A model generated the notes under the pieces. That model saw only the letters and a program-made list of their open reading frames with translations, was not told the DNA's origin and did no database searches. The position numbers and the translations under genes were made by a program. Positions 6,629 to 37,275 of a DNA stretch of 37,460 bases are shown here, piece after piece. The DNA is from an uncultured Ruminococcus sp. (lineage in GTDB: Bacteria > Bacillota > Clostridia > Oscillospirales > Ruminococcaceae): the NCBI GenBank assembly GCA_902788785.1, contig CADALT010000052.1:1-37460 (forward strand). The letters are read 5' to 3'. How positions within the stretch are numbered: position 1 is the first letter of the stretch; each line of letters starts with the position of its first letter.

Positions 6629-7410
6629 GAGCGAACACTAAGCCGTAAAAGCAAAAGACGCTCCGAGCGCAAAAACGGGCACCAAAGCAAAAAGTGGTGA
6701 CGAGGCAAAGCGCAGGGTCAAGCCGGGCGCTAGACGGCTTGCAGGGGGTGTGGGGGACAGAACACGGGCGGCGATGAAGCAAAAATCCTGAACGTCTGCC
6801 CACGTACCCGTACAAACAAAAAGGCGTGCGAGTGACATCGCCGCCCGATGACTTCAAACAGCGATAGCGAATTTGAAGTCATTCGCAGCGTTAGCTGCGA
6901 CACCTTGCCATCATCTCCATATCAAGATAAGAACAACAAAACATTAACCCCCACAGGATAACGCAACACCTGTGGGGGTTATTTGTCTTTTAGTCAGTTG
7001 CATGAACTTTTGCTTGGCATACCCGAGCCGTATTTTCGCTGGGCTTATGGACGGTTTTGTTTGGGTGAATAGATCGCTGCCGTCGCCCCTTACGGGTCGA
7101 AGAGGTCAAAAGCACTTCGTTGTTTGACCTCTGACGGGCGGCGATGTCGGTCGCACTTGTCTTTGCTTGTACGGGTAGATTGAGCACGTTCAAGAGGTTT
7201 GCTCCATCGCCGCCCGTGTTATTTGCTTTGCTCTCCCTGTTTTGTGGAGAACGCACTTTTTGTGCCTTGATGTGAGGGCTCTGCCCTCACACTCCCGCAA
7301 GCCGTCTAGCGCCCGGCTTGACCCTGCGCTCTGATTCGTCACCTCTTTTTGCTTTGGTGCATGGTTTGGCGCTCGGAGCTTTTTTTGCTTTTACGGCTTC
7401 GTTTTCGCTT
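6629..7410. repeat. large nested palindromic repeat, copy 1
   Basis: First of five related elements. The outer arms (AGCCGTAAAAGC at 6641 and GCTTTTACGGCT at 7387-7398; GCTCCGAGCGC against GCGCTCGGAGC) are inverted repeats reaching almost to the stop codons of the convergent protease and DegV genes. Internal modules in order: hairpin B closed by CGGGCGGCGATG/CATCGCCGCCCG (6765-6847), hairpin C ATGACTTCAAA/TTTGAAGTCAT (6848-6882), hairpin D TCGCAGC/GCTGCGA (6883-6900), terminator-like hairpin E CCCCCACAGG/CCTGTGGGGG (6948-6978), hairpin G GAGGTCAAA/TTTGACCTC (7102-7131), then an inverted B and the right arm. The left arm lacks about 60 bases present in copy 2. No gene is supported inside. Confidence 0.93.
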
Positions 7411-7426
7411 TGCCACTGATTATGTT

Positions 7427-8305
7427 TTACCTATAATCACCCTTGAAAAACAATGCTAATGTCCCGGGTCCCGAATGCGCACCTATTACAGGTCCCGTAT
7501 ATGCTATCACTACTTCCGTGTCCTCGCCAAATATCTCTTTTAACATCTTCTCTGCATATTTGGCATCTTCTATACAGTCCCCGTGACTCATAGTTACTAT
7601 CTTATTCTCGTTATTGCCCTTACGCTCTCTTATCATGTCGCCCAGCCTGTTTATCGACTGCTTTCTTCCCCTGACTTTATCCTGCGGTATCAGATGCCCG
7701 TCGTTATCTACGTTCAGTACAGGCTTTATCCCCAATACCGTTCCTGCCAGCGCCGCTGCCCTCGATACTCGTCCGCCACTGAACAGGTACTTTAAATCGT
7801 CTACTGTAAATACATGGCAGATCTTATAGCGGTTAACTTCTATCCAGGCTTCCAGCTGGTCGATGGTCAAACCCTCTCGCTTCTTCTGCTCTGCATATAT
7901 CAGCAGCAATCCCTCGCCAGAGGACGCACTCAGCGAGTCTACTACCACGATCTTTGCTTCGGGATATTTTTCCATAAGGTTGTTCTTCGCTATGTTCGCA
8001 CTGTTGTATGTGCCGCTAAGTCCCGACGAAAATGCAAGATACAGCACATCTCTGCCGTTTTTTAGCTCTTCCTCAAATGCATCTTCGCATACCCCGACTG
8101 CTATCTGCGAGGTCTTTGTTACTGCGTCTTCTCTCATCCTGCGGTAGAATTCCTGCATGGATATGTCTGCGGTGGTGTACGGCTTGCCGTCGATCTCAAA
8201 GGTCAGCGGCAGCAGCTTGCAGTCCATTTTAGCCAGTCTCTCCTCGGGAAGGTCACAAGTCGTATCGCAAAAAAGGGTGTAAGGTCTGTTTGCCATTTTC
8301 ATCAC
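7427..8305 (-). CDS. DegV family fatty-acid-binding protein
   Basis: 292 residues, normal for DegV/FakB proteins, which bind a fatty acid in a deep pocket. In other Firmicutes FakB hands fatty acid to the FakA kinase for phospholipid synthesis. Family signatures: FCDTTCDLPEE near the start, TSQIAVGVCEDAFEE (the TSQP-like motif), LAFSSGLSGTYNSA, and GPVIGAHSGPGTLALFFKG at the C-terminus. No fakA-like gene is next to it. The 3' end lies 17 bases from the palindromic repeat and uses mostly A/G-ending codons on its own strand. Confidence 0.95.
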   Translation of the reverse strand: MMKMANRPYTLFCDTTCDLPEERLAKMDCKLLPLTFEIDGKPYTTADISMQEFYRRMREDAVTKTSQIAVGVCEDAFEEELKNGRDVLYLAFSSGLSGTYNSANIAKNNLMEKYPEAKIVVVDSLSASSGEGLLLIYAEQKKREGLTIDQLEAWIEVNRYKICHVFTVDDLKYLFSGGRVSRAAALAGTVLGIKPVLNVDNDGHLIPQDKVRGRKQSINRLGDMIRERKGNNENKIVTMSHGDCIEDAKYAEKMLKEIFGEDTEVVIAYTGPVIGAHSGPGTLALFFKGDYR

Positions 8306-8374
8306 TCCGTTTAATATTTTTATAGTTCTTTATATTATTACCAAATACATATGCACTATATATGTATTTATATT

Positions 8375-8403
8375 ATTATATCACGCATTGGCTCTGATTG
8401 CAA
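8375..8403 (-). promoter_or_regulatory. promoter of the degV-like gene
   Basis: On the minus strand, -35 TTGCAA (8403-8398), 17-base spacer, -10 TATAAT (8380-8375), about 70 bases before the DegV start. The interval 8306-8457 is otherwise AT-rich, with no clear terminator for the small-gene operon that runs into it. Confidence 0.7.
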
Positions 8404-8457
8404 TAGTTTTGGTGATATTTTTTTGACAAATGTATAAAATTTTTACTCATGTCTTTA

Positions 8458-8733
8458 TCACAATATCAGATAAGCCAGCCCCACCAGCAGCTTAATGTCC
8501 GCACCTTGCTTATAAAGAATGTAGATGAGCATTGCGATAAGCGCCTTTTCTTCGTCGATGGCGAGGTTTTTAAGTATCCCCCCGAGCGATGCCGTGGGAG
8601 CCGTTGGTGCGCTCTCAGTGATCTCCTGCGGACTTTGCGCCCCCACTGCCTCACGGGAACGCCGCTGCATCTCCTGCACACGGCGTATAGCGTCCTCCTG
8701 CATCCTGCCAAAGCTGCTGTCAGAGTTCTCCAA
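8458..8733 (-). CDS. small hypothetical protein with hydrophobic C-terminus
   Basis: 91 residues, not recognised. The N-terminal half is polar (MENSDSSFGRMQEDAIRRVQ; Arg/Gln-rich, amphipathic) and is followed by a Pro/Thr/Ala linker. Residues about 63-91 contain two short hydrophobic stretches (ALIAMLIYILY and LLVGLAYLIL) that could associate with the membrane. Starts at TTG with RBS GGGAGG 8 bases upstream and overlaps the end of the preceding gene by 14 bases. It is the third gene of a three-gene operon of small unknown proteins. Confidence 0.75.
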   Translation of the reverse strand: MENSDSSFGRMQEDAIRRVQEMQRRSREAVGAQSPQEITESAPTAPTASLGGILKNLAIDEEKALIAMLIYILYKQGADIKLLVGLAYLIL

Positions 8734-9085
8734 GCAGATCGCCTCCCAAAAGGCTTTGTTTCAAGGCAGGATAGAGGTTCATAAGCTTATACAGCTTTAT
8801 CACACGGTCAAGCTTAGGCTGAGTTTCCTCTTTAAGCAGAGGTCTGAGCGCCGCCAGCAGCCGCAGATTGTTGTCCTCCTGCGAAGCGCTTTGCAGAAGC
8901 TGACCCAGCTGCATCAGCTTTACCGTGTCGATACCCGTATCACCGAGATCTGGCAGAGCCTTGACATTTTCCGCTGTAGCAGAGTTTTCCGCCCCCTGCC
9001 CCAGCATACCTGCAAGCTCACGTATCTGCGCCATGCTCTCCTCATCGTTGAGCACCGCCTGAAGCTTATTCATAAGATCGTCCAA
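8720..9085 (-). CDS. small hypothetical helical protein
   Basis: 121 residues, not recognised. The sequence is almost entirely helical in composition (MDDLMNKLQAVLNDEESMAQ, LMQLGQLLQSASQEDNNLRL), with no signal peptide or membrane segment. The start is TTG with a very strong RBS, AAAGGAGG, 7 bases upstream; no ATG is better placed. Middle gene of the three-gene operon. Translational coupling to the downstream gene is suggested by the 14-base overlap. Confidence 0.78.
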   Translation of the reverse strand: MDDLMNKLQAVLNDEESMAQIRELAGMLGQGAENSATAENVKALPDLGDTGIDTVKLMQLGQLLQSASQEDNNLRLLAALRPLLKEETQPKLDRVIKLYKLMNLYPALKQSLLGGDLLGEL

Positions 9086-9113
9086 TATCCCACCTCCTTT
9101 GAAATTTTACCGT

Positions 9114-9350
9114 TTATTTTCCCGAAAGCTTTTTGTAGAGCGCCTGAGCCTGTGGTGAACTCAGTATGCGCTCGCAGGTCGCCTTATCGGAAAGTGCCTT
9201 AGTCAGCATAGCCGCCTCAGCGGAAGGCATATTTTTCAGCGCTTTTTGGAAAGTGCCGTCATTCAGCTGGCGCATAAGCACATCGGGTGTAGTACCGAGT
9301 TTTTTTGCAGCCGCATCAATGAGCGCCTGCTTGTTGTTAAAATTGCCCAT
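9114..9350 (-). CDS. small hypothetical protein, first gene of the small-protein operon
   Basis: 78 residues from the ATG at 9350 (MGNFNNKQALIDAAAKKLGT). This start is chosen over an upstream in-frame codon because AGGAGAG lies 7 bases before it. Helical and soluble; residues 10-35 (AAAKKLGTTPDVLMRQLNDG) look like a short helix-turn-helix-like bundle, but I do not recognise a family. Together with the two genes downstream it forms a compact operon read away from the YfcE-type gene. The function is unknown. Confidence 0.78.
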   Translation of the reverse strand: MGNFNNKQALIDAAAKKLGTTPDVLMRQLNDGTFQKALKNMPSAEAAMLTKALSDKATCERILSSPQAQALYKKLSGK

Positions 9351-9420
9351 AATATATCTCTCCTTTTTGTGCAATAATAAGACTTCGTCCGTACAGGAGA
9401 CTAAAACTCCCTAAAAAGCT

Positions 9421-9449
9421 ATCATACGGAAGATGAAACTATTTGTAAA
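9421..9449 (-). promoter_or_regulatory. promoter of the three-small-gene operon
   Basis: On the minus strand, TTTACA (9449-9444), 17-base spacer, TATGAT (9426-9421), leaving a leader of about 65 bases before the start at 9350. It is divergent from the promoter at 9475-9503. Confidence 0.6.
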
Positions 9450-9474
9450 CATTTATTTATATATTCTATCTCTC

Positions 9475-9503
9475 TTGATTTTTTTGATGAAATATGCTAT
9501 ACT
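9475..9503 (+). promoter_or_regulatory. promoter of the phosphodiesterase gene
   Basis: TTGATT (9475-9480), 17-base spacer, TATACT (9498-9503), with the gene start 35 bases further on. This supports the start at 9538, because the longer reading frame from 9433 would begin upstream of the promoter. Confidence 0.68.
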
Positions 9504-9537
9504 CAATATAGTAAAGAAAACAGGGGGAGGGCGGCTC

Positions 9538-10017
9538 ATGAGGATCGTCATTTTTTCAGATACACACGGTAATTATGCCGCCATGCATAAGATAATCAAG
9601 CGAAACGGGGATGCCGACCTTTTTGTATTTTTAGGTGACGGGTTATCGGAGTTCAAGAAGCTCAAAGCGCACTACATAGACTGTAAGATGATAGCGGTGA
9701 AGGGCAACTGTGACTTTGACCCTGACCTGCCCGACCACATGGTATACGAACTACCCAACGGCAAGCGAATGTTTTTAGCGCATGGTGACAAATGGAGTGT
9801 ACGCACTTCGGTAGATGCGATATATGAGAAAGCGAGGGAACTGGACTGTCAGTTTGCGTTTTTCGGGCACACGCACGTAAGGTATTACGAGCAGCGAGGG
9901 AACATACTGATATTAAACCCGGGCAGTGCAGGACAGCCGAGGGATGACAAGCCTGCGTGTTATGCGTGGTTAGAGATAACCTCGACGGGGATAATATACA
10001 ACCATGTAAACTTATGA
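9538..10017 (+). CDS. YfcE/MJ0936-family metallophosphoesterase
   Basis: 159 residues from ATG 9538 (MRIVIFSDTHGN), preceded by a GGGGGAGGG RBS. It contains all the binuclear-metal motifs of the YfcE/MJ0936 phosphodiesterase family: SDTHGN (D-x-H), FLGDG (GD), KGNCD (GNxD), LAHGD and FGHTH (GHTH). The family hydrolyses phosphodiesters in vitro; the physiological substrate is usually unknown. The gene is rich in codons ending in A or G, as are others running into the palindromic repeats. A small hairpin terminator follows the stop, and copy 2 of the repeat lies about 115 bases downstream. Confidence 0.93.
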   Translation: MRIVIFSDTHGNYAAMHKIIKRNGDADLFVFLGDGLSEFKKLKAHYIDCKMIAVKGNCDFDPDLPDHMVYELPNGKRMFLAHGDKWSVRTSVDAIYEKARELDCQFAFFGHTHVRYYEQRGNILILNPGSAGQPRDDKPACYAWLEITSTGIIYNHVNL

Positions 10018-10018
10018 T

Positions 10019-10066
10019 ACACAGCGCACTTTACCACAGATAAGTGGTAGGGTGTGTTTTCTTTTA
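10019..10066 (+). terminator. probable terminator after the phosphodiesterase gene
   Basis: A bulged stem (ACAC...ACCAC pairing with GTGGT...GTGT; inner stem 10033-10037/10044-10048) is followed by TTTTCTTTTA. It lies between the stop codon and palindrome copy 2, so this gene need not depend on the palindrome for termination. Confidence 0.55.
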
Positions 10067-10130
10067 TATAGAAATTATATGCGAGGGAGTGGCGAAAGAT
10101 GCTTGGGCGATCAAGAATTTCGGCGAGCGA

Positions 10131-10948
10131 GCACGTAGCCGTAAAAGCAAAAGAAAGCTCCGAGCGCAAAAACGGGCACCAAAGCAAAAAGGGGTGACGA
10201 GGCAAAGCGCAGGGTCAAGCCGGGCGCTAGACGGCTTGCAGGGGGTGTGGGGGACAGAGTCCTCCACATCAAGGCACAAAAAGTGCGTTCTCCACAAAAC
10301 AGGGAGAGCAAAGCAAACAACACGGGCGGCGATGGAGCAAATCATTGAACGTCTGCCCACGTAACCACCCACACAAAATATCGTGCGAGGACATCGCCGC
10401 CCGATGACTTCAAACAGCGATAGCGAATTTGAAGTCATTCGCAGCGCTAGCTGCGACACCTCGCCACCATCTCCATATCGAGATAAGAACAACAAAAATA
10501 AAAACCCCCACAGGATAACGCAACTCCTGTGGGGGTTCTTTGTGATTTTGTCCGTTGCTCGGAATTTTGCCATACTTACCAGAGCGATTTTTTGTTTGGC
10601 TTATGGACGGTTTTGCTTTAGTGGAAAGATCGCTGTCGTCGCCCCTTACGGGTCGAAGAGGTCAAAAGCGTTTCACTGTTTGACCTCTGACGGGCGGCGA
10701 ATTTATCCGCACGAAGATTTATGGGGACGTGTTCAGATGCTCACGCACTGATTTTTGCTATTCGCCGCCCGTGTGGGTAGCTTTTCTCTCCTCGTTTTGT
10801 GGAGAACGCTCTTTTTGTGCCTTGATGTGAGGGCTCTGCCCTCACACTCCCGCAAGCCTTTCGTGAAAGGCTTGAGCCAAAGCTTGCCTCGTCACCGCTT
10901 TTTGCTTTGGTGCATAGTTTGGCGCTCGGAGCTTTTTTCTTGCTTTTT
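10131..10948. repeat. large nested palindromic repeat, copy 2
   Basis: Same modular order and orientation as copy 1, filling the space between convergent genes and ending 3 bases before the stop of the transporter. The left arm uses the AAGCCG/CGGCTT hairpin; the right arm uses the alternative CAAGCCTTT/AAAGGCTTG hairpin (10853-10874). Terminator-like hairpin E is at 10503-10537 and hairpin G at 10658-10687. Its right-hand B module is closed by CGGGCGGCGAAT/ATTCGCCGCCCG (10691-10702/10760-10771), differing from other copies by changes on both sides of the stem. The B interior is also unrelated to the other cassettes. Confidence 0.93.
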
Positions 10949-10951
10949 GAA

Positions 10952-12346
10952 TTACAAAAGCCCCAATGATCCAACCAATAACAGCAATAAAAGTACAGGC
11001 TCAATAAATTTTACCATTACTATATATAGATGCTTACGCCCAAATCTCTCGCCGTTCTTCGTAGCTTCGTCTACTATCGTACCGGGCTTCACTATCCAGC
11101 CTATCAGTATACAAGTGCTTATTGCTACTACCGGCATAAGTATGTTATTGCTGATGTAGTCGAATATGTCCAGTATCTGCCCTACACTTCCGTTCGGCAG
11201 CTTTAACTCAAAGTAGAATGCATTGTAGCCTAAACATATCAGTATGCCCAGCCCTAATGCTACTGCGGATTCTATTACAACCGCTTTCGCTCTCGACCAG
11301 CCAAAATGGTCGATGAGTCCCGATACTATCGCTTCAAGTATCGACATCGAACTCGTTAATGCCGCAAACAGTACCATCAGGAAGAACGCTGCGCCTATTA
11401 CATTGCCTATGGGTCCCATTGCCGCAAATACCTTCGGCAGCGCTACAAACATCAATCCCGGTCCTGCGTTTTGCAGTCCCTCGTCTCCAAGGAATGCATA
11501 TACCGCAGGTATTATCATCACACCTGCCAGAAATGCCACAACTGTGTCAAATATCTCGATCTGGTTTACTGACCTCATCAGGTTGTCCTCATCTTTGAAG
11601 TACGAACCATATGTTACCATTATGCCCATGGCTACGCTGATACTGTAGAAAAGCTGTCCCATGGCATCAAGCACAACTGTGAAGAAGCCCTTTGCGTTCA
11701 TGCCCGAAATATTGGGTATAACGAATATCTTGAAGCCTTCGATACCTGTTCTTCCGTCCGCACCCTTTAAGGTCAGCGAGAATATCGATATGCCTATGAT
11801 AGCCACCAACAGCAGGGGCATCAGCACTTTCGAGATCGCCTCGATACCTTTGTTTACGCCCTTGTAGATGATGAATGCCGTTGCCGCAAGGAAAATGATG
11901 TCAAACGCTATGGGCGAGATGTGGCTTGTTATAAAGCCCGTGAAATAGCCGTCTTCCGCAGCCTGTACACCGCCGCCCGTCGCGAATGCTGTGAAATATT
12001 TGAGCACCCAGCCGCCGATAATGCAGTAATAAGGCAGTATCATAAAGGGTACTATACTTGCGAAAACACCTATCCAGCCCGACTTTTTATTGAGCTTGCC
12101 GTATGCTGTAAGACAGCTTTGTTTGGTCTTTCTGCCTATAGCGACTTCTGTTACCAGCAGGGTGAAACCAAAGGTCAGTGCCAGGACTATGTACACTGCC
12201 AGAAAAGTTCCGCCGCCGTTTTTAGCCGCAAGATAGGGAAATCTCCAGATGTTTCCAAGTCCCACCGCAGAGCCTGCCGCAGCGAGGATAAATCCCATGG
12301 AGCTTGAAAACGAATTACGCTTTGCGCTTTCGGTATGCTTTTCCAT
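10952..12346 (-). CDS. SNF-family sodium-dependent (amino acid) symporter
   Basis: 464 residues from ATG 12346, chosen because AGGAGAG lies 9 bases upstream; the longer frame to 12379 has no RBS. About 11-12 hydrophobic segments are visible. TM1 carries the hallmark FILAAAGSAVGLGNIWRFPY, the unwound helix that binds Na+ and substrate in LeuT/MhsT, and TM6-8 regions follow the same pattern (GQLFYSISVAMGIMVTYGSY). It probably imports an amino acid with Na+ across the cytoplasmic membrane; the substrate cannot be read from the sequence. It has its own promoter. The 3' end adjoins palindrome copy 2 and is rich in A/G-ending codons on the coding strand. Confidence 0.94.
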   Translation of the reverse strand: MEKHTESAKRNSFSSSMGFILAAAGSAVGLGNIWRFPYLAAKNGGGTFLAVYIVLALTFGFTLLVTEVAIGRKTKQSCLTAYGKLNKKSGWIGVFASIVPFMILPYYCIIGGWVLKYFTAFATGGGVQAAEDGYFTGFITSHISPIAFDIIFLAATAFIIYKGVNKGIEAISKVLMPLLLVAIIGISIFSLTLKGADGRTGIEGFKIFVIPNISGMNAKGFFTVVLDAMGQLFYSISVAMGIMVTYGSYFKDEDNLMRSVNQIEIFDTVVAFLAGVMIIPAVYAFLGDEGLQNAGPGLMFVALPKVFAAMGPIGNVIGAAFFLMVLFAALTSSMSILEAIVSGLIDHFGWSRAKAVVIESAVALGLGILICLGYNAFYFELKLPNGSVGQILDIFDYISNNILMPVVAISTCILIGWIVKPGTIVDEATKNGERFGRKHLYIVMVKFIEPVLLLLLLVGSLGLL

Positions 12347-12390
12347 TTTCTGTAACTCTCCTAAAAAATTATTTTTCAACTATAAAGTTA

Positions 12391-12419
12391 ATTATACCAT
12401 ACATTTCAGACATTTACAA
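12391..12419 (-). promoter_or_regulatory. promoter of the Na+ symporter gene
   Basis: On the minus strand, TTGTAA (12419-12414), 17-base spacer, TATAAT (12396-12391), giving a leader of about 38 bases. Confidence 0.75.
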
Positions 12420-12470
12420 GAGAAAATGAAAAAAAGTCATTTTTTACCATTTGAATAAAACAGCGGACGT

Positions 12471-12492
12471 GTGGCAATAATACGAATGCCAC
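12471..12492. promoter_or_regulatory. inverted repeat in the lipoprotein gene leader
   Basis: GTGGCA (12471-12476) and TGCCAC (12487-12492) form a perfect 6-bp inverted repeat 30 bases before the lipoprotein start. It could be an operator or a leader hairpin. I see no convincing 17-base-spaced promoter beside it, so the promoter of the lipoprotein gene is undecided. Confidence 0.4.
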
Positions 12493-12522
12493 GATAATAA
12501 GGCAAAGAAAGGAACGATACGA

Positions 12523-12918: not shown

Positions 12919-13758
12919 AGCAAGAAAAAAATAAAGCTCCGAGCGCAAAAACGGGCACCAAAGCGAAAAGTGGTGACGAATCAAAGCGCAGGGTCAAGCC
13001 GGGCGCTAGACGGCTTGCGGGAGCGTGAGGGCAGAGCCCTCACATCAAGGCACAAAAAGAGCGTTCTCCACAAAACAGGGAGAACACAACTAAATAAACG
13101 GGCGGCGATGGAGCAAAATTCTTGAACGTCTGCCCACGTAACCACCCACACAAAATATCGTGCGAGTGACATCGCCGCCCGATGGTTTTAAACAGCGCAG
13201 CGCTTTTAAAACCATTCGCAGCGCTAGCTGCGACCACTTTCCTCTATCTCCATATCGAGATAAGAACAACAAAAATACTAACCCCCACAGGATAACGCAA
13301 CTCCTGTGGGGGGGTTCTTTATTATTTTGTCCGTTGCTCGGAATTTTGCCAGACATACCCGAGCCGTATTTTCGCTAGGCTTATGGACGGTTTTGCTTGG
13401 GTGGATAGGTCGCTGTCGTCGCCCCTTACGGGTCGAAGAGGTCAAAAGCGTTTCACTGTTTGACCTCTGACGGGCGCGTTTCACTGTTTGACCTCTGACG
13501 GGCGGCGATGTCACTCGCACGCCTTTTGGTTTGTACGGGTAATTAGGCAGACGTTCGATGATTTGCTCCATCGCCGCCCGTTTATTTTGCTTTGCTCTCC
13601 CGTTTTAGCTGTTAGTCCTAGCTTTGTGCCTTGATGTGAGGGCTCTGCCCTCACACTCCTGCAAGCCGTCTAGCGCCCGGCTTGACCCTGCGCTTTGCCT
13701 CGTCACCGCTTTTGCTTTGGTGCCCGTTTTTGCGCTCGGAGCGTCTTTTGCTTTTGCC
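12919..13758. repeat. large nested palindromic repeat, copy 3
   Basis: Fills the space between the lipoprotein gene and the convergent AraC gene, same orientation as the other copies. Hairpin C here is ATGGTTTTAAA/TTTAAAACCAT instead of ATGACTTCAAA/TTTGAAGTCAT: several base pairs changed on both sides. The left arm carries GTGAGGGC-AGA-GCCCTCAC (13025-13043), where copy 2 has GTGGGGGAC-AGA-GTCCTCCAC. Hairpin G is at 13438-13467, followed by a perfect 28-bp tandem duplication (13448-13475 and 13476-13503). Central hairpin E has extra G residues. Confidence 0.93.
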
Positions 13759-16986: not shown

Positions 16987-17800
16987 GCAATAAACACGAA
17001 GCAAAAGCAAAAAAAAGCTCCGAGCGCAAAAACGGGCACCAAAACAAAAAGGGGTGACGAATCAAGCTTTGGCTCAAGCCTTTCACGAAAGGCTTGCGGG
17101 AGCGTGAGGGCAGAGCCCTCACATCAAGGCACAAAGCTGGGACTAACAGCTAAATCGGGAGAATGAAACTATTAAAACGGGCGGCGATGGAACAAAAATC
17201 TTGAACGTGCTCAATCTACCCGTACAAGCAAAGACAAGTGCGAGTGACATCGCCGCCCGATGACTTCAAACAGCGATAGCGAATTTGAAGTCATTCGCAG
17301 CGCTAGCTGCGACCACTTTCCTCTATCTCCATATCGAGATAAGAACAACAAAAATAACGACCCCCACAGGATAACGCAACTCCTGTGGGGGTTCTTTGTC
17401 TTTTTGCCCGTTGCTCGGAATTTTGCCATGCTTACCAGAGCGTATTTTCGCTGGGCTTATGGACGGTTTTGCTTGGGTGGATAGGTCGCTGTCGTCGCCC
17501 CTTACGGGTCGAAGAGGTCAAAAGCGTTTCACTGTTTGACCTCTGACGGGCGTCGCACGATATTTTGTGTGGGTGGGTACGTGGGCAGACGTTCAGGATT
17601 TTTGTTTCATCGCCGCCCGTGTTGTTTGCTTTGCTCTCCCCTGTTTTGTGGAGAACGCTCTTTTTGTGCCTTGATGTGGAGGACTCTGTCCCCCACACCC
17701 CCTGCAAGCCGTCTAGCGCCCGGCTTGACCCTGCGCTTTGATTCGTCACCACTTTTTGCTTTGGTGCATGGTTTTGCGCTCGGAGCCGTTTTTTTTCTTT
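16987..17800. repeat. large nested palindromic repeat, copy 4
   Basis: Same orientation and order as the others, but this copy lies between two genes that both read rightwards, so it is not a convergent-gene separator. The left arm has the CAAGCCTTT/AAAGGCTTG hairpin (17075-17096) and the AGCTG/CAGCT hairpin; the right arm has the AAGCCG/CGGCTT form. Hairpin G is at 17514-17543. The right-hand B module lacks part of its closing stem. The left B cassette matches the right B cassette of copy 1 rather than its own partner. Confidence 0.93.
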
Positions 17801-30274: not shown

Positions 30275-31828
30275 TTATTTCTCGCTGAGGGCAGTATATT
30301 CGCCCTTTATCACATTGTAGAACTTGCAGCCCTTGGTCTTGCCGAACAGCTTTATCATCCTGATATAGAACTGCTGCTTGGTGGGGGCTTCGATGAGCAG
30401 CTTGCCTATCTGCTCCAGTTCCTCTGCGCTGCATATGCCGTCAAGCAGTTCACCCAGTCTGTCCTTTTCAGCCTTGGGAACTTCTGTCTGCTCGGGTGCA
30501 GGCTTGGCAGGCTCTTTCTTTGCAGGGGCTTTCGTTTTAGCTTCCGCCTTTTCCGCAACAGGCTTGGGCTCCTGCTTTGGCTCCTGAACATTTTCCTGTG
30601 CTGCCACCACTTCGTTGGGGTCAACATACTCGGGATGTTCCTCTGCATACATCTCTTTGAGTCTAAGATATCTGGGTCTCAAAAGCTTGTACAGGTCGGT
30701 GGCATCCTGCTTGTAATCCTTGGCGAGCGCATTGTGCAGTTCTTCCTTAGTCTCGGACTGTATCAGCAGCTGAGAGATATGGTTCACCACATCGGGCTTG
30801 CATTCAGCCTTTTTCAGCGCATCTTTCAGCGCAGCGAAAAATCCCTTGCCCTGCTTTTTGTTCTTCTGCTTGTCCTCGGCAGGTTCAGCCTTCTTCTCAG
30901 CCTTTTCAGCGGCTTTCTTCACGGGCTTTTCTTCCTGCTTCTTATCCTCCTGCTTAGGCTGAGTTTCCGCAGGCTTTTCCGTGGCGGGCTTTTTCTCCTT
31001 AGCAGACTTCTTCTCCTTAACAGGCTTGTCCTCCGCCGCAGGTGCAGGCTGAACATTCTCGTTCTTGTCCGCACTCTTTACCATCATATAGGGCTTGAAT
31101 GCCGCTTCGAGCGCCGCAAGCTCCTCACTGCTCATGCTGATATCGTCGGAAGTTTCCTCCTTGACGGGCTTAGGCTCCTGCTTTTTATCATCAGCCTTCT
31201 TAGCATTCTGCGCTTTTTCCGGCTTATCGCTCTTTGTGCTTTTTTCCTCGGGCTTAGTCTCCTGCTTTGGTGCAGGCTCTGCGGACTTCGGCTCCTCAGC
31301 CTTTTCCTCCACAGGCGCAGCCTCTTCCTCGATAACTTCAACAGTTTCCGCCTGCTCTGCCTGTACATCCTCATCCACACCGCCGAACACAGCGGTATCG
31401 CCCTCGGGCATATCGTCGTCCTCAACAATATGCTTTTTGCCGCCTGCATAGTTTATAGCCTGTGCGATGGTACGTGTGCGGTATACCGTGCAGTCGGGTG
31501 CGGCGATATACTTGCCGTGCCAGAAATCGTGCAGAAAGTCAAAGCTCTTGTCATTGCTGATAACGAAGATATGTGTGTAATAGTTCCTGCTCACCAGATA
31601 GCCAAGCAATGTTGACAGCTGGAAATCCAGCGCATTCTTGCCGCCTACGTGTACCTTGAAATACTCCACCTCGGCTTTTGAGATGAGCACCTTCTGATGC
31701 ATCTCGAAGTTGATGGTATCGGCATTCTCGCTGTAGAAGATTATCACCCTGTCATACTCTGTCAGGCTGTCGATACCTGTCAGTCCCTTTGATTTCACGT
31801 TCTCGAAATCTACCAGATAAACTTTCAT
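30275..31828 (-). CDS. NYN/PIN-like nuclease-fold protein with long Lys/Glu/Pro-rich region
   Basis: 517 residues from the ATG at 31828, chosen over 31834 because GAAAGGAA needs the extra spacing. Residues 1-110 are an NYN/PIN-like domain: VYLVDFENVKS (Asp7, Glu9, Asn10) and FVISNDKSFDFL hold acidic residues as in PIN-fold ribonucleases. From about 140 to 440 the sequence is mostly low-complexity, rich in Lys, Glu, Pro and Ala and probably disordered. Two short helical units of similar pattern (about 275-340 and 470-515: HISQLLIQSETKEELHNALA; QIGKLLIEAPTKQQFYIRMI) follow. First gene of the operon with uvrC and def. RNA as substrate is an inference from the fold. Confidence 0.88.
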   Translation of the reverse strand: MKVYLVDFENVKSKGLTGIDSLTEYDRVIIFYSENADTINFEMHQKVLISKAEVEYFKVHVGGKNALDFQLSTLLGYLVSRNYYTHIFVISNDKSFDFLHDFWHGKYIAAPDCTVYRTRTIAQAINYAGGKKHIVEDDDMPEGDTAVFGGVDEDVQAEQAETVEVIEEEAAPVEEKAEEPKSAEPAPKQETKPEEKSTKSDKPEKAQNAKKADDKKQEPKPVKEETSDDISMSSEELAALEAAFKPYMMVKSADKNENVQPAPAAEDKPVKEKKSAKEKKPATEKPAETQPKQEDKKQEEKPVKKAAEKAEKKAEPAEDKQKNKKQGKGFFAALKDALKKAECKPDVVNHISQLLIQSETKEELHNALAKDYKQDATDLYKLLRPRYLRLKEMYAEEHPEYVDPNEVVAAQENVQEPKQEPKPVAEKAEAKTKAPAKKEPAKPAPEQTEVPKAEKDRLGELLDGICSAEELEQIGKLLIEAPTKQQFYIRMIKLFGKTKGCKFYNVIKGEYTALSEK

Positions 31829-31876
31829 ATTCATTTCCTTTCGGTATTTTGATATGAACGGCAGGCAAGTTCCGAC

Positions 31877-32020
31877 AGTGCCTCACACACAGAGCCCCTG
31901 CGCCGGGTAGACATGGATATCATTCGGCACTAGGTCTTCTCCGTGCAGCCGCAGCTATGGATAAATGCACAGACCGTTATGATTTTTGGCGGATAATATC
32001 TGCCTTAGCTGACATTATCC
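31877..32020 (-). ncRNA. candidate structured leader RNA or small RNA upstream of the NYN-uvrC-def operon
   Basis: Downstream of a strong minus-strand promoter lies about 190 bases of non-coding sequence able to form three successive stems: GGATAAT/ATTATCC (32020-31991), GGTCT-GTGCA with TGCAC and AGACC (31975-31933, one 5-base bulge), and AGTGCC/GGCACT (31931-31877). The heptamer ACAGACC occurs twice on the plus strand (31969-31975, 32021-32027). No riboswitch class I know fits well; cobalamin, T-box and 6S RNA were considered and not supported. It could be a regulatory 5' leader or an independent small RNA. Confidence 0.4.
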
Positions 32021-32033
32021 ACAGACCATATAC

Positions 32034-32062
32034 ATTATAACATAAATATTATAATTTATCAA
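32034..32062 (-). promoter_or_regulatory. promoter of the NYN-uvrC-def operon
   Basis: On the minus strand, TTGATA (32062-32057), 17-base spacer, perfect TATAAT (32039-32034). Transcription should begin near 32027, leaving a leader of about 200 bases. I see no LexA-type SOS box beside it. Confidence 0.82.
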
Positions 32063-32441
32063 GTACCAAGCGACGTATAATTCATGATAACCGAAGTTTA
32101 TGATATACTGCTTTATACTCACGAAATTCTCTGCCGATGATGATATATATCAGCATACAGGGCTTACACTTTTTGAAAAAACAGATCTTACTGCGGCAAG
32201 TTATAATACTTTTCAAAGCGGAATAACTTTTGCAGGATTTTCGTTCATAAAATTCATTTCTGCAAAAATTCCTGCAAAATCGGCATTTTCAGATAAACAT
32301 CTGCCATCACATAGCAAAAATCCGAGGGTGACAAGTACACTTGCTTTCAGACTTTTTGCATAAATCCGATGATGTGTTTTCCTCTGTTTATTCCCAAAAC
32401 GATAAAATTTGCGTTTTTTTTGAAATTTTTCAGCCCAGCAC
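32063..32441. other. AT-rich intergenic region, no gene supported
   Basis: Between the divergent NYN and gdhA promoters. Overlapping open frames on both strands (32100-32363 plus, 32213-32500 minus) lack RBSs and recognisable domains, and the minus one runs across the gdhA promoter. It contains scattered GCAAAA/TTTTGC words and no convincing long hairpin. It may hold regulatory sites for gdhA that I cannot identify. Confidence 0.5.
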
Positions 32442-32470
32442 TTGCAAATCTGAAAAAGATATGCTATAAT
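32442..32470 (+). promoter_or_regulatory. promoter of gdhA
   Basis: TTGCAA (32442-32447), 17-base spacer, perfect TATAAT (32465-32470). The leader is about 85 bases and contains a strong hairpin. Confidence 0.8.
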
Positions 32471-32491
32471 AGTAAGGCAGTGTGAGTCCGG

Positions 32492-32509
32492 GACGTACAA
32501 CTGTACGTC
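32492..32509 (+). promoter_or_regulatory. leader hairpin of gdhA
   Basis: GACGTAC-AACT-GTACGTC, a perfect 7-bp stem with a tetraloop, about 15 bases after the expected transcription start. CCG just before it and CGG after it can extend the structure with a bulge. It may protect the 5' end of a highly expressed mRNA or respond to a regulator. It does not match the glutamine (glnA) riboswitch as I know it. Confidence 0.5.
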
Positions 32510-32560
32510 AGTGACGGGCTTGACAATGAAAATTTAATCTATAAGATGGGAGTTTTTACA

Positions 32561-33872
32561 ATGGCATTGAAGAATGAGTACCTCCAGAAGGTATACGAGC
32601 AGGTTGAGAAGAGAAACCCCGGCGAGAAGGAATTCCACCAGGCAGTTTATGAGGTTGATCGACGCAGGCGTATTCGACAGGATCGTTGAGCCTGAGAGAC
32701 AGGTAATGTTCAGAGTGCCTTGGGTAGATGACAACGGCAAGGTACAGGTAAACAGAGGTTTCAGAGTACAGTTCAACTCTGCTATCGGTCCTTACAAGGG
32801 CGGTCTGAGATTCCACCCCACAGTATGCGCATCCGTTATCAAGTTCCTCGGTTTCGAGCAGATCTTCAAGAACAGCCTGACAAGCCTGCCTATGGGCGGC
32901 GGCAAGGGCGGCGCTGACTTCGATCCTCAGGGCAAGTCCGACGCTGAAGTTATGAGATTCTGCCAGAGCTTCATGACTGAGCTTTGCAAGCACATCGGTG
33001 CTGATACAGACGTTCCCGCAGGTGATATCGGTGTAGGCGGCAGAGAGATCGGCTACCTCTTCGGTCAGTACAAGAGACTGAGAAACGAGTTCACAGGCGT
33101 TCTGACAGGTAAGGGTATGCAGTACGGCGGATCCCTCATCAGACCTGAGGCTACAGGTTTCGGCGCAGTTTACTATGCAGTAGAGATGCTCAAGCACTTC
33201 GGTGATTCCATCGAGGGCAAGACCTTTGCAGTATCCGGCTTCGGCAACGTTGCTTGGGGTACTATCAAGAAGGTAAACGAGCTGGGCGGTAAGGTAGTAA
33301 CTATCTCCGGTCCTGACGGTTACATCTATGATAAGGACGGCATCAACACTCCCGAGAAGGTAGATTACCTGCTTGAGATGAGAGCTTCCTGCAGAAACAG
33401 AGTTCAGGATTATGCTGACAAGTTCGGTGTACCTTTCTTCGCAGGCAAGAAGCCTTGGGAGCAGAAGGTCGACATCGTAATGCCTTGCGCTACACAGAAC
33501 GAAGTTAACATCGACGATGCTAAGAACATCATCGCTAACGGTGTTAAGTACTATGTTGAGGTTTCCAATATGCCTACAACTGCTGATGCAGTAGCTTACC
33601 TGAGAGAGAACGGCGCTATCGTAGCTCCTTCCAAGGCTGTTAACGCAGGCGGCGTTGCAGTTTCCGGTCTCGAGATGAGCCAGAACTCCATGAGATACAA
33701 CTGGACAGCTGAAGAGGTTGACGCTAAGCTCCACCAGATCATGAAGAACATCTTCTCCGCATCTGTTGAGGCTGCTCACGAGTACGGTCTGGGTGATGAC
33801 CTGATCGCAGGCGCTAACATCGCAGGCTTCCTGAAGGTTGCTGAGGCTATGAAGGCTCAGGGCGTGGTTTAA
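32561..33872 (+). pseudogene. gdhA: NADP-type glutamate dehydrogenase GdhA, disrupted by a 5' deletion/frameshift
   Basis: The normal start is ATG 32561 (MALKNEYLQKVYEQVEKRNP), preceded by GGGAG. That frame reads 32 family-like residues up to EFHQAVYEV and then, near 32655, leaves the correct frame and stops within 15 codons. The rest of the enzyme (LIDAGVFDRIVEPERQVMFR to the end) is intact in the +1 frame, including GPYKGGLRFHP, PMGGGKGGADFDP and the NADP-fold FGNVAWG. Compared with hexameric clostridial GDH (about 450 residues) roughly 13-14 residues are missing and the lost length must be 2 modulo 3. Codon use is strongly biased, as for a highly expressed ammonia-assimilation enzyme. Either a real mutation or a sequence/assembly error. 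Confidence 0.9.
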
Positions 33873-33905
33873 TAAACATTCAGATAATATCCCTGTAAAT
33901 AGGTT

Positions 33906-33945
33906 TGCCCCCGAACGTTTTAATGCGTTCGAGGGCATTCTTTTT
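33906..33945 (+). terminator. terminator of gdhA
   Basis: TGCCCCCGAACG (33906-33917) pairs with CGTTCGAGGGCA (33926-33937) with one mismatch and an 8-base loop, followed by TTCTTTTTG. The reverse strand could also serve the convergent SUKH gene that ends at 33960. Confidence 0.88.
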
Positions 33946-33959
33946 GCTGTTTTGTCAGG

Positions 33960-34370
33960 TCAGCCGTAATGCTTTGAGATATACCCTATGATATCCTCGG
34001 CATAATACTCGCCTTCTTCACCGACATATTCATAAAGATAGATATTCCCATCGGGACGGATAACAAAATAGCCGCCTGCACCATTTCCTGCAAATACGAT
34101 GCCTTCGACGGTGTATAATTCATTGAAGACTTTGGTTTGGGAAACGATCTCATCGAACGGATACAGGATACTGCCGATAACAAAAGGCTTTCCGTCATTC
34201 GCTTTTGGGTGAGTCGTCAGTTCAAGGATACCGTTGCTGACTTTCAGTATTTCAAGCAGATCATTCGGCAGCATGGTCATTGCCTGACTTAACTGCGGCT
34301 CTTCCAGCGGAGGACAAAGCCGATATGCTCCGTATGATCTTTGTTGTATTAGTTCGATCACCTTGTTCAT
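33960..34370 (-). CDS. SMI1/KNR4 (SUKH) family protein
   Basis: 136 residues, RBS GGAGGAG 6 bases before ATG. LPNDLLEILKVSNGI and IVFAGNGAGGYFVIRPDGNI with a C-terminal helix fit the SUKH fold, most of whose bacterial members are immunity proteins against polymorphic or contact-dependent toxins. No toxin gene is adjacent, so this is an orphan: either protection against toxins of neighbours or a domesticated ligand-binding protein. It lies between the LysR terminator and the gdhA terminator as a single-gene unit. Confidence 0.85.
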   Translation of the reverse strand: MNKVIELIQQRSYGAYRLCPPLEEPQLSQAMTMLPNDLLEILKVSNGILELTTHPKANDGKPFVIGSILYPFDEIVSQTKVFNELYTVEGIVFAGNGAGGYFVIRPDGNIYLYEYVGEEGEYYAEDIIGYISKHYG

Positions 34371-34464
34371 GATATCTCCTCCATAAATACTTTTGTGTAA
34401 TTATAGCATAACGCTCCCGATATGTCAACCGAAACGCCTGCACCATTTCTAAAAGCACATAAAA

Positions 34465-34511
34465 ATACCGCATACGGTATTTGACAAAGTGTGATACACC
34501 ATATGCGGTAT
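34465..34511 (-). terminator. terminator after the lysR-like gene
   Basis: ATACCGCATA (34465-34474) and TATGCGGTAT (34502-34511) are a perfect 10-bp inverted repeat; on the minus strand it is followed by TTTTTATG. The left half together with the next bases can also pair on itself (ATACCG-CATA-CGGTAT), giving an alternative fold. It lies 6 bases past the LysR stop. Confidence 0.72.
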
Positions 34512-34516
34512 GATAT

Positions 34517-35464
34517 TTAATCCTCTACTTTCTCGATGCCGTTGCCTATCTCCATGCGAACACGTTCCAGCTCGTCAATGAAAAGCTGGTCTGTTGCACT
34601 GGGACGATAGCTGCTCTGGGAAATGAGCACGTCCTTGTTGGTGCGCTTCACATCAGAGCACTTGCGCTGAACAAGTCCGCAGCGGTCAAGTATCTCCTTG
34701 GGCATGGGCGATACCCACATATAAGAATCGGGACAAGCCGAAAGTATATCGAACTGACTGCCTCGCTCATAAACATAAATATGCCTGCGGTGATCGTTGA
34801 TGCGTGCATTCCTGCGCTGGTATACCGATGATATGTTGGGCACGGTATTGTCGCCGTGGAGTATCTCGATATACTTTTCAAGAGTTTCCTCAGTGATGTT
34901 ATCCACCTTTGCAAGACTGCTCTCAGCGCTCATTATCAGCACATAATCATACTCCCAGCTGCTTAGCACCGCAAGATTTTTCTCCTCCAGCACGGGCAGG
35001 AAAAAGCTCTCGTAAGCAATTGGGTACCTTATCAGACCCAGGTCATACTCACACTCCACCACCGCATTTATAGCGTCCATGGAGTTAGTCTCCTTGATCT
35101 TGATATCCATATACTGTCTGCCGCCTACCTTATTAAGGAAAGCCGTGAACGCATGGGAAACATAGCTTGCTCTTGGCAGCAGCAGCGAAAAGCTGACCCT
35201 GTCGCCGTCATTGTCCTTATAAAGCTGTTCCATCTTGTCCATCTGCACCAATATCGCCTTTGCGTACTGCAAAAATTCCTTACCCTTATCCGTGGGAACA
35301 ACGCCCTTTGCAGACCTCTTGAATATAGGCACGCCCACCTCGTGTTCCATCTCCTTTATCGCCTTGGAGAGGTTCGGCTGACCCATATAAAGGGCTGATG
35401 CCGCCTTGGTTATCGAACCCAGACGCTCGACCTCCACCACATATCTGAGATGTGTCAGATTCAT
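34517..35464 (-). CDS. LysR-family transcriptional regulator
   Basis: 315 residues; RBS TGGAGG before ATG. The N-terminal winged HTH (MNLTHLRYVVEVERLGSITK, AASALYMGQPNLSKAIKEME) is typical LysR, followed by a linker helix and the two-lobed effector domain. The gene is divergent from the sirtuin gene across a 165-base interval, the usual arrangement when a LysR protein controls its neighbour as well as itself. The inducer is unknown. Confidence 0.95.
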   Translation of the reverse strand: MNLTHLRYVVEVERLGSITKAASALYMGQPNLSKAIKEMEHEVGVPIFKRSAKGVVPTDKGKEFLQYAKAILVQMDKMEQLYKDNDGDRVSFSLLLPRASYVSHAFTAFLNKVGGRQYMDIKIKETNSMDAINAVVECEYDLGLIRYPIAYESFFLPVLEEKNLAVLSSWEYDYVLIMSAESSLAKVDNITEETLEKYIEILHGDNTVPNISSVYQRRNARINDHRRHIYVYERGSQFDILSACPDSYMWVSPMPKEILDRCGLVQRKCSDVKRTNKDVLISQSSYRPSATDQLFIDELERVRMEIGNGIEKVED

Positions 35465-35519
35465 TTTACTCTACCTCCATCAATACATCCATATACAATT
35501 ACATATATTTACCATGAAC

Positions 35520-35548
35520 ATTATACTATATTCTTTCTCATATGTCAA
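35520..35548 (-). promoter_or_regulatory. promoter of the lysR-like gene
   Basis: On the minus strand, perfect TTGACA (35548-35543), 17-base spacer, perfect TATAAT (35525-35520). The plus-strand promoter for the sirtuin is less clear: TTGACA at 35569 has its nearest good -10 (TATAAT at 35597) 22 bases away, a spacing that would fit activator dependence. Confidence 0.82.
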
Positions 35549-35629
35549 GCATATACCACGGTATTGACAAAAGATTTAATCTGCGTTAAAATATAATCAG
35601 CAAATAAAAACACAAAAGGAGGTCTTGAT

Positions 35630-36343
35630 ATGACATTGCAGGAAATAATCGACGATTCGCAGCGCATAGTATTTTTCGGAGGTGCAGGTGTTTCCACCGA
35701 AAGCGGCATACCTGATTTTCGCTCGGTAGACGGGCTATATAATCAGAAATATGACTATTCTCCCGAGGAGATACTTAGCCACACATTCTTCATGAAAAAG
35801 ACTGATGAGTTCTACAAATTCTACCGTGACAAAATGCTTTGCCTTGATGCCAAGCCAAACAAAGCCCATCTGAAGCTGGCTGAACTTGAAAAGGCAGGCA
35901 AGCTGACGGCAGTAGTCACACAGAATATCGACGGATTGCACCAGGCGGCAGGCAGCAAAAAAGTTCTGGAGCTGCACGGTTCGGTGCTGAGGAACTATTG
36001 TATGCAGTGCGGCGCACCCTTTAAAACCACGGATATACTGAATAGCGAGGGCACACCAAGATGTTCCTGCGGCGGTATTATCAAGCCCGATGTGGTACTT
36101 TATGAAGAGGGGCTTGACAGCTATACCATGTCCGAGACTATCCGAGAGATAGAAAGCTGTGACACACTCATTATAGCAGGCACATCACTGACGGTGTACC
36201 CTGCGGCAGGACTGGTCAGGTATTTCAGGGGCAAATATCTGGTGCTGATAAACCGTGACCCCACGCCCATGGACGATTCCTGCGACCTTGTCATCCATGA
36301 TAAAGTCGGCGAAGTGCTGGACGGTATAGTAATTCATAACTAA
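35630..36343 (+). CDS. SIR2-family NAD-dependent protein deacylase
   Basis: 237 residues, normal for bacterial CobB-type sirtuins, which remove acyl groups from lysines using NAD+. GGAGVSTESGIPDFR (17-31) binds NAD, TQNIDGLHQ (98-106) and catalytic His116 (ELHGS) form the active site. Zn-binding cysteines are Cys124, Cys127, Cys145 and Cys147 (CMQC...CSC). RBS AAAGGAGG. Divergent from a LysR regulator that may control it. Codons at its 3' end show no purine skew although palindrome copy 5 starts about 25 bases downstream. Confidence 0.95.
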   Translation: MTLQEIIDDSQRIVFFGGAGVSTESGIPDFRSVDGLYNQKYDYSPEEILSHTFFMKKTDEFYKFYRDKMLCLDAKPNKAHLKLAELEKAGKLTAVVTQNIDGLHQAAGSKKVLELHGSVLRNYCMQCGAPFKTTDILNSEGTPRCSCGGIIKPDVVLYEEGLDSYTMSETIREIESCDTLIIAGTSLTVYPAAGLVRYFRGKYLVLINRDPTPMDDSCDLVIHDKVGEVLDGIVIHN

Positions 36344-36369
36344 TAAAATTAGGCATAACGGAAACGCAG

Positions 36370-37275
36370 CCAAAAAGACAAAAGAAGCTCCGAGCGCAAA
36401 ACTAGGCACCAAAGCAAAAAGTGGTGACGAGGCAAAGCGCAGGGTCAAGCCGGGCGCTAGACGGCTTGCGGGAGCGTGAGGGCAGAGCCCTCACATCAAG
36501 GCACAAAGCTGGAACTAACAGCTAAATCGGGAGAATGAAACTATTAAAACGGGCGGCGATGAAACAAAAATCCTGAACGTCTGCCTAACTGCCCATACAA
36601 GCAAAGACAAGTGCGAGTGACATCGCCGCCCGTATGGGTTAAGTCAGCGGTTATCAAAGGCGAAGCCTACGCTTACATTCTTTGAAGATACTCGAATGAA
36701 AAGAATGATAAGCGTATTGATAAGCGCTGACTTAGTACAGCGATAGCGCTTTTAAAACCATTCGCAGCGCTAGCTGCGACACCTTTCCTCTATCTCCATA
36801 TCGAGATAAGAACAACAAAAAAATCAACCCCCACAGGATAACGCAACTCCTGTGGGGGTACTTTGTTATTTTGTCCGTTGCTCGGAATTTTGCCATGCTT
36901 ACCAGAGCCGTATTTTTGCTGGGCTTATGGACGGTTTTGCTTGGGTGGATAGGTCGCTGTCGTCGCCCCTTACGGGTCGAAGAGGTCAAAAGCACTTCGT
37001 TGTTTGACCTCTGACGGGCGGCGATGTCCTCGCACGCCTTTTGGTTTATACGGGTAATTAGGCAGACGTTCAGGATTTTTGTTTCATCGCCGCCCGTTTA
37101 TTTTGCTTTGCTCTCCCGTTTTAGCTGTTAGTTCTAGCTATGTGCCTTGATGTGGAGGACTCTGTCCCCCACACCCCCTGCAAGCCGTCTAGCGCCCGGC
37201 TTGACCCTGCGCTTTGATTCGTCACCCCTTTTTGCTTTGGTGCATGGTTTGGCGCTCGGAGCTTTTTTTGCTTTA
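36370..37275. repeat. large nested palindromic repeat, copy 5 (with nested insertion)
   Basis: Same orientation and outer arms (GCTCCGAGCGC at 36386, GCGCTCGGAGC near 37251), placed between the sirtuin and a convergent minus-strand gene. It is about 100 bases longer than the others because a palindromic insert replaced the left half of hairpin C; only the right half, TTTAAAACCAT, remains. Hairpin G (36982-37011) has the AGCACTTCGTTG loop shared with copy 1, against AGCGTTTCACTG in copies 2-4. Flanking genes are much less skewed than around copies 1-4, which may mean a younger insertion. Confidence 0.92.
36640..36734. repeat. palindromic insertion inside repeat copy 5
   Basis: An 18-bp inverted pair with one mismatch (36640-36657 with 36717-36734) encloses a second imperfect pair (ACGCTTACATTCTTT at 36669 and AAAGAATGATAAGCGT at 36700). 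It is absent from the other four copies. Size and structure resemble a small MITE/REP-like unit that entered the larger palindrome; no clear target-site duplication is visible because the adjacent hairpin half was lost. Confidence 0.75.

Follow-up and report, generated by a model that had tools for sequence, protein, structure and literature searches.

The contig CADALT010000052.1 of an uncultured Ruminococcus sp. (assembly GCA_902788785.1), analysed over positions 1 to 37,460 (the window), carries five copies of a palindromic element of about 0.8 kb (Table 1). An earlier note on this DNA had described these copies as a family sharing one order of modules; all five were found essentially where it had placed them and the common order was borne out, with local exceptions in copies 1, 3, 4 and 5. 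From left to right an element reads outer GCTCCGAGCGC, hairpins hp1 and hp2, a long B hairpin, an A hairpin, a Y hairpin and a central hairpin (AACCCCCACAGG..CCTGTGGGGGTT), after which the modules return as Y′, A′, B′, hp2′, hp1′ and GCGCTCGGAGC. Seven of the eight element sides that face a called stop codon lie 1–27 nt from it, the left side of copy 2 being the exception, as measured from the borders given in the earlier note and from simple longest-ORF (open reading frame) gene calls; of the two remaining sides, one points toward a gene start and the other toward the contig end.

The absence of a credible gene from the element, also claimed earlier, was confirmed at E 0.01 in Pfam, where none of the seven ORFs (106–169 aa) overlapping copies 2, 3 and 4 matched a family. 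Copy 3 folds as RNA far better than its shuffled versions, both in 12919–13420 on the plus strand (z −7.8) and in the overlapping part 13360–13758 on the minus strand (z −4.2), with 0 of 100 shuffles equalling it in either case. A match to a known annotated family would have spoken against novelty, and Rfam gave none in the window at gathering score. When copies 1–4 and six loci of relatives were searched, eight weak matches to unrelated families were returned, far under the gathering scores, the best being MIR3454 in one relative (37.7 against a gathering score of 142 bits, E 1e-4). In the open-access literature we found no description of this repeat, most subscription journals being outside that search.

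Table 1. Copies of the element in the window, with the hairpins and neighbouring genes located around them
Feature	Position	Strand	Remarks
Element copy 1	6629..7410	+	Alpha half left, beta half right; left arm lacks the 3′ half of hp2 and the adjoining spacer
Copy 1, neighbours			Stops of S8 protease gene (6626) and DegV gene (7427, minus strand) on either side
Copy 1, beta-half A hairpin	7101..7132	-	Tip AC-GAA-GT; compared with copy 3, both arms changed and GAA loop kept
Element copy 2	10131..10948	+	Right end 4 nt from stop of minus-strand SNF-type symporter gene (10952)
Copy 2, left end			114 nt past metallophosphatase gene (10017)
Element copy 3	12919..13758	+	Begins 1 nt past stop of a 131-aa ORF (12918); short duplication in right half
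Copy 3, right end			16 nt from stop of AraC-family gene (13774, minus strand)
Copy 3, hp1	12992..13018	+	AAGCC/GGCTT stem
Copy 3, hp2	13025..13043	+	GTGAGGGC AGA GCCCTCAC; stem varies in both arms between copies
Copy 3, B hairpin	13098..13181	+	12-bp stem, ~59-nt loop; DNA fold z −3.8
Copy 3, A hairpin	13181..13218	+	Variable stem, tip GC-GCA-GC (GNA rule); DNA fold z −5.7
Copy 3, Y hairpin	13216..13233	+	TCGCAGC GCTA GCTGCGA
Copy 3, central hairpin	13280..13316	+	GC-rich; T-rich flanks on both strands
Copy 3, beta-half Y hairpin	13419..13436	-	CCC GTAA GGG, read on the minus strand
Copy 3, beta-half A hairpin	13437..13468	-	AGAGGTCAAA stem, tip GT-GAA-AC
Copy 3, beta-half B hairpin	13498..13580	-	
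Copy 3, beta-half hp1 + hp2 unit	13620..13699	-	
Element copy 4	16987..17800	+	Begins 2 nt past DUF3169 gene stop (16985); right B hairpin shortened
Copy 4, right end			Toward start region of next plus-strand gene (17938)
Element copy 5	36370..37275	+	27 nt 3′ of Sir2-type deacylase gene (stop 36343); insertion of ~100 bp in place of the 5′ arm of the left A hairpin, with nested palindrome
Copy 5, nested palindrome	36640..36734	+	TAAGTCAGCG..CGCTGACTTA, own tip GGC-GAA-GCC; DNA fold of 36620–36750 z −8.2

Half-elements and their local hairpins

The sequences of relatives show that the building block is a half-element of about 330 bp, which runs from its outer end to the centre as hp1, hp2, a linker, the long B hairpin, the A hairpin and the Y hairpin. 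What had been described as one recursive palindrome of about 800 bp is instead two such half-elements placed tail to tail around a short centre, and the halves are also found alone. Among 96 sites scored in six genomes (high-scoring copies selected from five relatives and from the own genome of the window), 29 were pairs, with 591–782 bp between unit ends, and 67 were unpaired units, of which 51 had inner modules and no partner, 4 had the inner modules of a partner and 12 had no inner modules. When six units at stretch ends are excluded, 49 of 61 unpaired units carry inner modules and no partner.

The arms within one element were no more alike than arms taken from different elements in any of four genomes, and were slightly less so (0.66 versus 0.70, 0.68 versus 0.70, 0.51 versus 0.59 and 0.55 versus 0.61). 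It follows that no long palindrome is being maintained, and a single long cruciform was rejected on the same ground; the outer inverted arms proposed earlier hold as geometry and fail as conserved pairing. Among 25 scorable pairs, the two halves were identical in the six innermost base pairs of the A stem in 1, where random dealing of halves within each genome would give 7.2 (P 0.0008, with one of the 25 scored stems mis-assigned), so that the two halves of a pair are mostly of unlike type. A perfect long palindrome may thus be avoided, yet assemblies that break at perfect palindromes could give the same pattern.

The conserved features are the local hairpins, whose stems change in both arms, rather than the outer arms; in this sense the precise modular conservation noticed earlier is real for the recurring modules and was misplaced as far as the outer arms are concerned. 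B and A stems were both called in 127 of 171 distinct halves, compared with 3 when the 171 were shuffled and 6 when they were replaced by Markov copies. Pairing over distinct stems reached 93% for B (51 stems, 26 fully paired) and 90% for A (35 stems, 16 fully paired) and fell to 31% after arms were re-dealt between copies, the high values being partly due to construction since stems were chosen as the best-pairing stretch. In hp2, two-sided changes were found at six of its eight pairs. The loop of hp1, for its part, looks complementary to AGCGC just 5′ of the hairpin, a putative pseudoknot, and the same pseudoknot-like complementarity appears at the matching place in relatives in several variants (GCGC/GCGC, GCGG/CCGC).

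Loops of the form GNA or GNNA closed by at least two G-C pairs make extraordinarily stable DNA mini-hairpins, as set out in passages of PMC4686876. The tip of hairpin A takes the form of a GN(N)A mini-hairpin with two pairs in 114 of 130 called A hairpins, 103 of them closed by GC..GC; the loops are GAA (44), GATA (26), GACA (11), GTAA (6), GTA (6), GCA (6), GGA (5), GGTA (4), GTTA (3), GCCA (2) and GGCA (1). Counted as distinct loops, 36 of 52 fit GN(N)A, compared with 6% of shuffled loops. It is for hairpin A that the DNA mini-hairpin definition of loop plus two G-C pairs was found to hold. The RNA GNRA rule calls for a purine as the third base of a four-base loop; this was found in 6 of 53 four-base A tips, which are therefore not of the GNRA type. 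All nine A hairpins that are intact in the window also follow GN(N)A by eye, with tips GATA, GCA and GAA and with both AC-GAA-GT and GT-GAA-AC occurring; in copy 5 the tip of the left A hairpin still reads GC-GATA-GC although the insertion replaced the 5′ arm of that hairpin. Tips of the form C-GN(N)A-G with at least three pairs, searched in the 171 distinct halves, numbered 85 on the strand read from outer end to centre and 13 on the opposite strand, the comparison being 32 on one strand of one shuffle.

Hairpins are also nested within hairpins. One recurring mini-hairpin, whose core CGACGCAGTC is constant and has the GNA-looped tip GAC-GCA-GTC, was located by eye in hp1, A, B, Y or the outer region of various copies in five relatives, each time with another five-base stem; it was counted 19 times in 51 kb of element sequence and 3 times in the remaining 264 kb, and was not found in the window. 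The nested palindrome of copy 5 is 95 bp long, and its stem occurs with the same sequence in another copy of the own genome (L061:8745).

Distribution and turnover among related genomes

In the own genome (2.95 Mb in 67 contigs, 90.6% complete) we counted 11 near-complete cores of about 300 bp and at least 31 matches to the outer unit. The true number is probably higher, because several contigs begin or end inside copies, and for the same reason the copies also limit genome assembly. A covariance search, which the earlier note had suggested, was run with a model built on the outer 74-nt unit (hp1 and hp2) and gave matches in 26 of 29 genus genomes, with at least 104 in the top genome, and, across the bacterial family, in 19 of the 148 genomes sampled, representing 18 of 123 genera (own genome included throughout); numbers of matches are lower bounds, as only part of the first-look candidates in each genome was scored. 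The repeat family is therefore not wholly isolated. With the whole of copy 3 as a DNA query, matches, mainly to the outer unit, appeared in 13 of 61 relatives (own included), while an exact-pattern scan of named genomes returned 75 stretches, all in Ruminococcus (R. albus 8, AR67, KH2T6 and metagenome-assembled genomes). Elements with the complete arrangement of modules were seen in strains of R. albus and in related metagenome-assembled genomes. No match was obtained in plasmids, phages or viral contigs, the viral scan consisting of one exact pattern.

The crowding of five copies into 37 kb invites the idea of a chromosome-organising site, which the earlier note had raised, or of a supercoiling site. 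Most matches of the own genome do lie on few contigs (C52, C38, C53, C57 and the start of C7), clustering is seen on contigs C119 and C71 of G023, and the 15 matches found in G022 are all on its largest contig. Yet those of G022 are spread along that contig, those of G005 lie on many contigs, the best dnaA match of the own genome is on contig C19, where no copy is listed, and the clustering is partly an assembly effect since own-genome contigs end at copies. Such a role is not favoured and is the least probable of the readings considered here.

Sites without the element, another check proposed earlier, were found at orthologous positions. The DegV gene beside copy 1 has 25 loci in 25 other genus genomes, among which the outer unit gave one weak match (E 0.008), a 51-bp palindrome remnant made of element ends. 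The Sir2-type gene beside copy 5 has 28 loci in 26 genus genomes (at least three paralogs with 53–54% identity, and one fragment), and at E 0.01 no outer unit was found in their fetched flanks. Both scans took in the whole fetched locus, in which the 3′ flank is under 500 bp at L273, L290 and L293; loci were not turned to the gene, so that the flank inspected for minus-strand genes is the start side. At a site beside L108:4513, G027 and G012 carry the full element, G005 retains two ends fused to a short hairpin, and G022 and G002 have none.

In G005 (R. albus AR67) two elements enclose a gene segment whose orientation relative to its right flank is reversed in G027 (KH2T6; L109, L358), and the junction retains one outer hairpin; judging from this comparison, the elements may act as recombination sites. 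Moreover, A-stem types vary between copies at one orthologous site (L105, L131, L159). Just beyond several element ends of the R. albus clade (L153, L130, L254, L355) lie tails of the AATTCATAATTCATAATT type, together with a TTGGCA..TGCCAA hairpin.

Stem types that change at one site, nested hairpins that accumulate and the collapse to a short hairpin in G005 are what would be expected of a functionless mutational by-product, in which template switching and gene conversion perfect and shuffle palindromes. The GN(N)A tips, the strand bias, the sense orientation described below and the constant order of modules across species would be unexpected under such a process, and we consider it very improbable.

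Gene ends and the folded strand

Unpaired units are mostly oriented in sense after the upstream gene: of 52 independent cases, 41 were of this kind (p 3.6e-5). The 52 upstream genes come from grouping 60 of the 67 units, once six edge units and one that has a weak partner are set aside; in the tandem context alone, 27 were in sense and 6 in antisense (p 3e-4). The upstream genes have no common function or enzyme in Pfam, which was run on 82 of 85 upstream same-strand genes (three omitted, long ones trimmed to the C-terminal 450 residues): the top family, GGDEF, occurred in 5 of 82 and the recombinase PF07508 in 3.

This orientation is what an RNA role predicts. According to this alternative, the transcript of the upstream gene would enter the half-element, fold as a structured 3′ untranslated region and stop at the centre, and pairs would serve two convergent genes as a shared terminator with RNA-protecting ends. 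The closeness of window copies to stop codons agrees with it, and so does the central hairpin of copy 3, whose T-rich flanks on either strand suggest a putative bidirectional terminator. In the two cases inspected, element-free relatives have a hairpin 3′ of the gene, GC-rich after the DegV gene in L252 and with a T tail after another gene in L367. Against this, only 8 of the 27 pairs with both neighbours known are convergent (16 are tandem and 3 divergent), the central GGGGGTT hairpin is present in the 8 own-genome pairs and in 0 of 21 pairs of relatives, and the four-base A tips depart from GNRA. Internal mismatches in 192 distinct stems, Y left out, gave 23 G-U against 14 A-C (p 0.19), which is not significant; a stricter intermediate count gave 19 to 10, with Y at 1:5, and an earlier broad and noisy one gave 12:5 for hp1, 5:1 for hp2, 20:25 for B, 14:11 for A and 13:17 for Y, mis-assigned stems being retained in these counts. 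The read-through RNA of the earlier note is thus conceivable from its sense orientation, while the lack of a significant G-U excess and the A tips do not support it; as a sole explanation we hold it for possible and lean against it. An RNA role at 3′ ends may nonetheless explain orientation and position besides a role as DNA.

The reading that we tentatively prefer is that of a non-autonomous interspersed repeat which is selected as strand-specific DNA hairpins, lies at gene ends and doubles as a 3′ boundary. Selection would act on a folded single DNA strand, exposed in replication or as the non-template strand in transcription, and would in this form be recognised in trans by an activity that copies or recombines it. 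Gene ends would be the places where insertions are tolerated, and the hairpins, here possibly together with the central terminator-like hairpin, could take over the role of the 3′ boundary. Cells tend to cut or delete perfect 0.7-kb palindromes, and pairs made of unlike halves would avoid forming one. If the repeat is selected as folded DNA at gene ends, as proposed, the A tips, the strand bias, the local two-sided changes, the nesting and the turnover of sites would all follow. Folded single-stranded DNA directly after a stop codon is also a feature of integron attC sites.

Several points weigh against selection as DNA. The proportion of 36 in 52 distinct loops overstates independence because loops share descent, and in 41 of the 171 halves no A hairpin was called. 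Beyond hairpin A the tips fail to tell DNA from RNA: GNNA loops occur in RNA too, the hp2 loop AGA matches neither rule, and of 63 four-base C-GN(N)A-G tips 37 fit GNRA as well (mainly GTAA and GCAA), which the RNA alternative may claim for itself. The sense bias and, not significantly, the G-U tilt point the same way. The near-perfect stems could stem in part from template-switch correction of palindromes, and the unlikeness of halves may be inflated, both by assemblies that break at perfect palindromes and by the mis-assigned stem. Finally, no transposase, recombinase or target duplication could be tied to the element in a search of the own genome for a Y1 transposase, among the upstream neighbours and in nine copies. 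The earlier suggestion of a non-autonomous mobile element stands as far as a non-autonomous repeat is concerned, this being the best reading.

Bacterial palindromic repeats are usually short, and whether they have a DNA or RNA, mobile or functional basis is disputed. The many natural variants of this one, with changing stems and rule-bound tips, provide a direct comparative test of selection on folded DNA or RNA, and its full, half and collapsed copies, seen once at one site in related strains, illustrate how such repeats may grow and shrink.

Comparison with known repeat systems

The element is related to known bacterial palindromic repeats and is unusually elaborate among them. Repetitive extragenic palindromic (REP) sequences are palindromes of 20–40 bp tagged GTAG or CGTC at one end, occurring at gene 3′ ends in single and inverted-pair forms, with sub-families that have exchanged stems and a proposed single-strand recognition, as presented in parts of PMC3733652. 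The likeness to REP, to bacterial interspersed mosaic elements (BIME) and to REP doublets forming hairpins (REPIN), in the features covered by those parts, lies in palindromes at gene 3′ ends, single and inversely paired, with stems that vary in both arms (PMC3733652). A population of this kind, copied by a Y1 transposase of the REP-associated tyrosine transposase (RAYT) type that recognises single-stranded hairpins, would work alike with its strand-specific hairpins, and the letters CGTC do occur in the core of the nested mini-hairpin. The element differs in being about ten times longer, with five hairpin types in a fixed order; the earlier judgement that it is far larger than REP is upheld by the half-element alone (330 bp versus 20–40 bp). 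Neither GTAG nor CGTC was found on either strand of the consensus of the outer unit, the only module checked for the tag, and membership in REP was rejected for this reason and for length. PF01797 (Y1_Tnp) was not found in the own genome, where at 90.6% completeness a gene may have been missed, so that REPIN/RAYT membership was likewise rejected for want of a cognate transposase. Among the 29 genus genomes Y1_Tnp was present in 16 and absent from some unit-rich ones, such as G017 with at least 60 units; its presence does not fit copy number, and a RAYT was discarded as the copying agent. Copying of REP/REPIN type is distinctly improbable.

Miniature inverted-repeat transposable elements (MITEs) would offer another origin, as deletion derivatives of an insertion sequence moved through their terminal inverted repeats by its transposase. 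Prokaryotic MITEs such as QMITE, in what parts of PMC10969869 convey of them, are similarly non-coding and intergenic, with inverted ends and a graded decay to short remnants. Dispersed copies, presence and absence among relatives and TGCCAAGGA ends resembling terminal inverted repeats in some copies of the R. albus clade are consistent with this, and TGCCAA-type ends were seen in ten candidates in relatives, one of which (1094 bp) is doubtful. Terminal inverted repeats are thus present in outline, yet the ends vary between copies and species, neither a target-site duplication nor a sharp end was seen by eye in nine copies, and no parent insertion sequence was seen, no systematic search having been made. 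The element is moreover larger than the 50–500 bp given for MITEs in that source (PMC10969869), and its strings of nested hairpins are left unexplained, making an origin as a MITE improbable.

BOX repeats consist of boxA, boxB and boxC over about 0.15 kb. The likeness to pneumococcal BOX and SPRITE is in modular repeats, and the difference from BOX is that the present element is arranged tail to tail and measures 0.8 kb. SPRITE resembles terminators, in the account given in parts of PMC10969869.

More boldly, the element could represent a new class of DNA elements, whether mobile or maintained, in which selection and recognition would both act on one folded strand. Its stems would be free to change while its tips stay within GNA/GNNA, it would grow as mini-hairpins are inserted into its hairpins, pairs of unlike halves would stabilise it by keeping a perfect long palindrome from forming, and an activity other than RAYT would copy it; this is a possibility that we regard as rather doubtful.

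The outer unit (hp1 and hp2) is a relative of a two-hairpin intergenic repeat of the bacterial family, for which no published name was found, and in eight loci of other genera the B, A and Y modules were not seen by eye. Loci L163–L171 of other genera carry related two-hairpin units, some followed by other strings of hairpins (for instance around AACAGTCC..GGACTGTT); judging from their sequences, modular hairpin repeats between genes may form a set that spans the bacterial family. As for the neighbours of the element in the window, the S8-family protease beside copy 1 (2853–6626) has a dockerin domain at its C-terminus.

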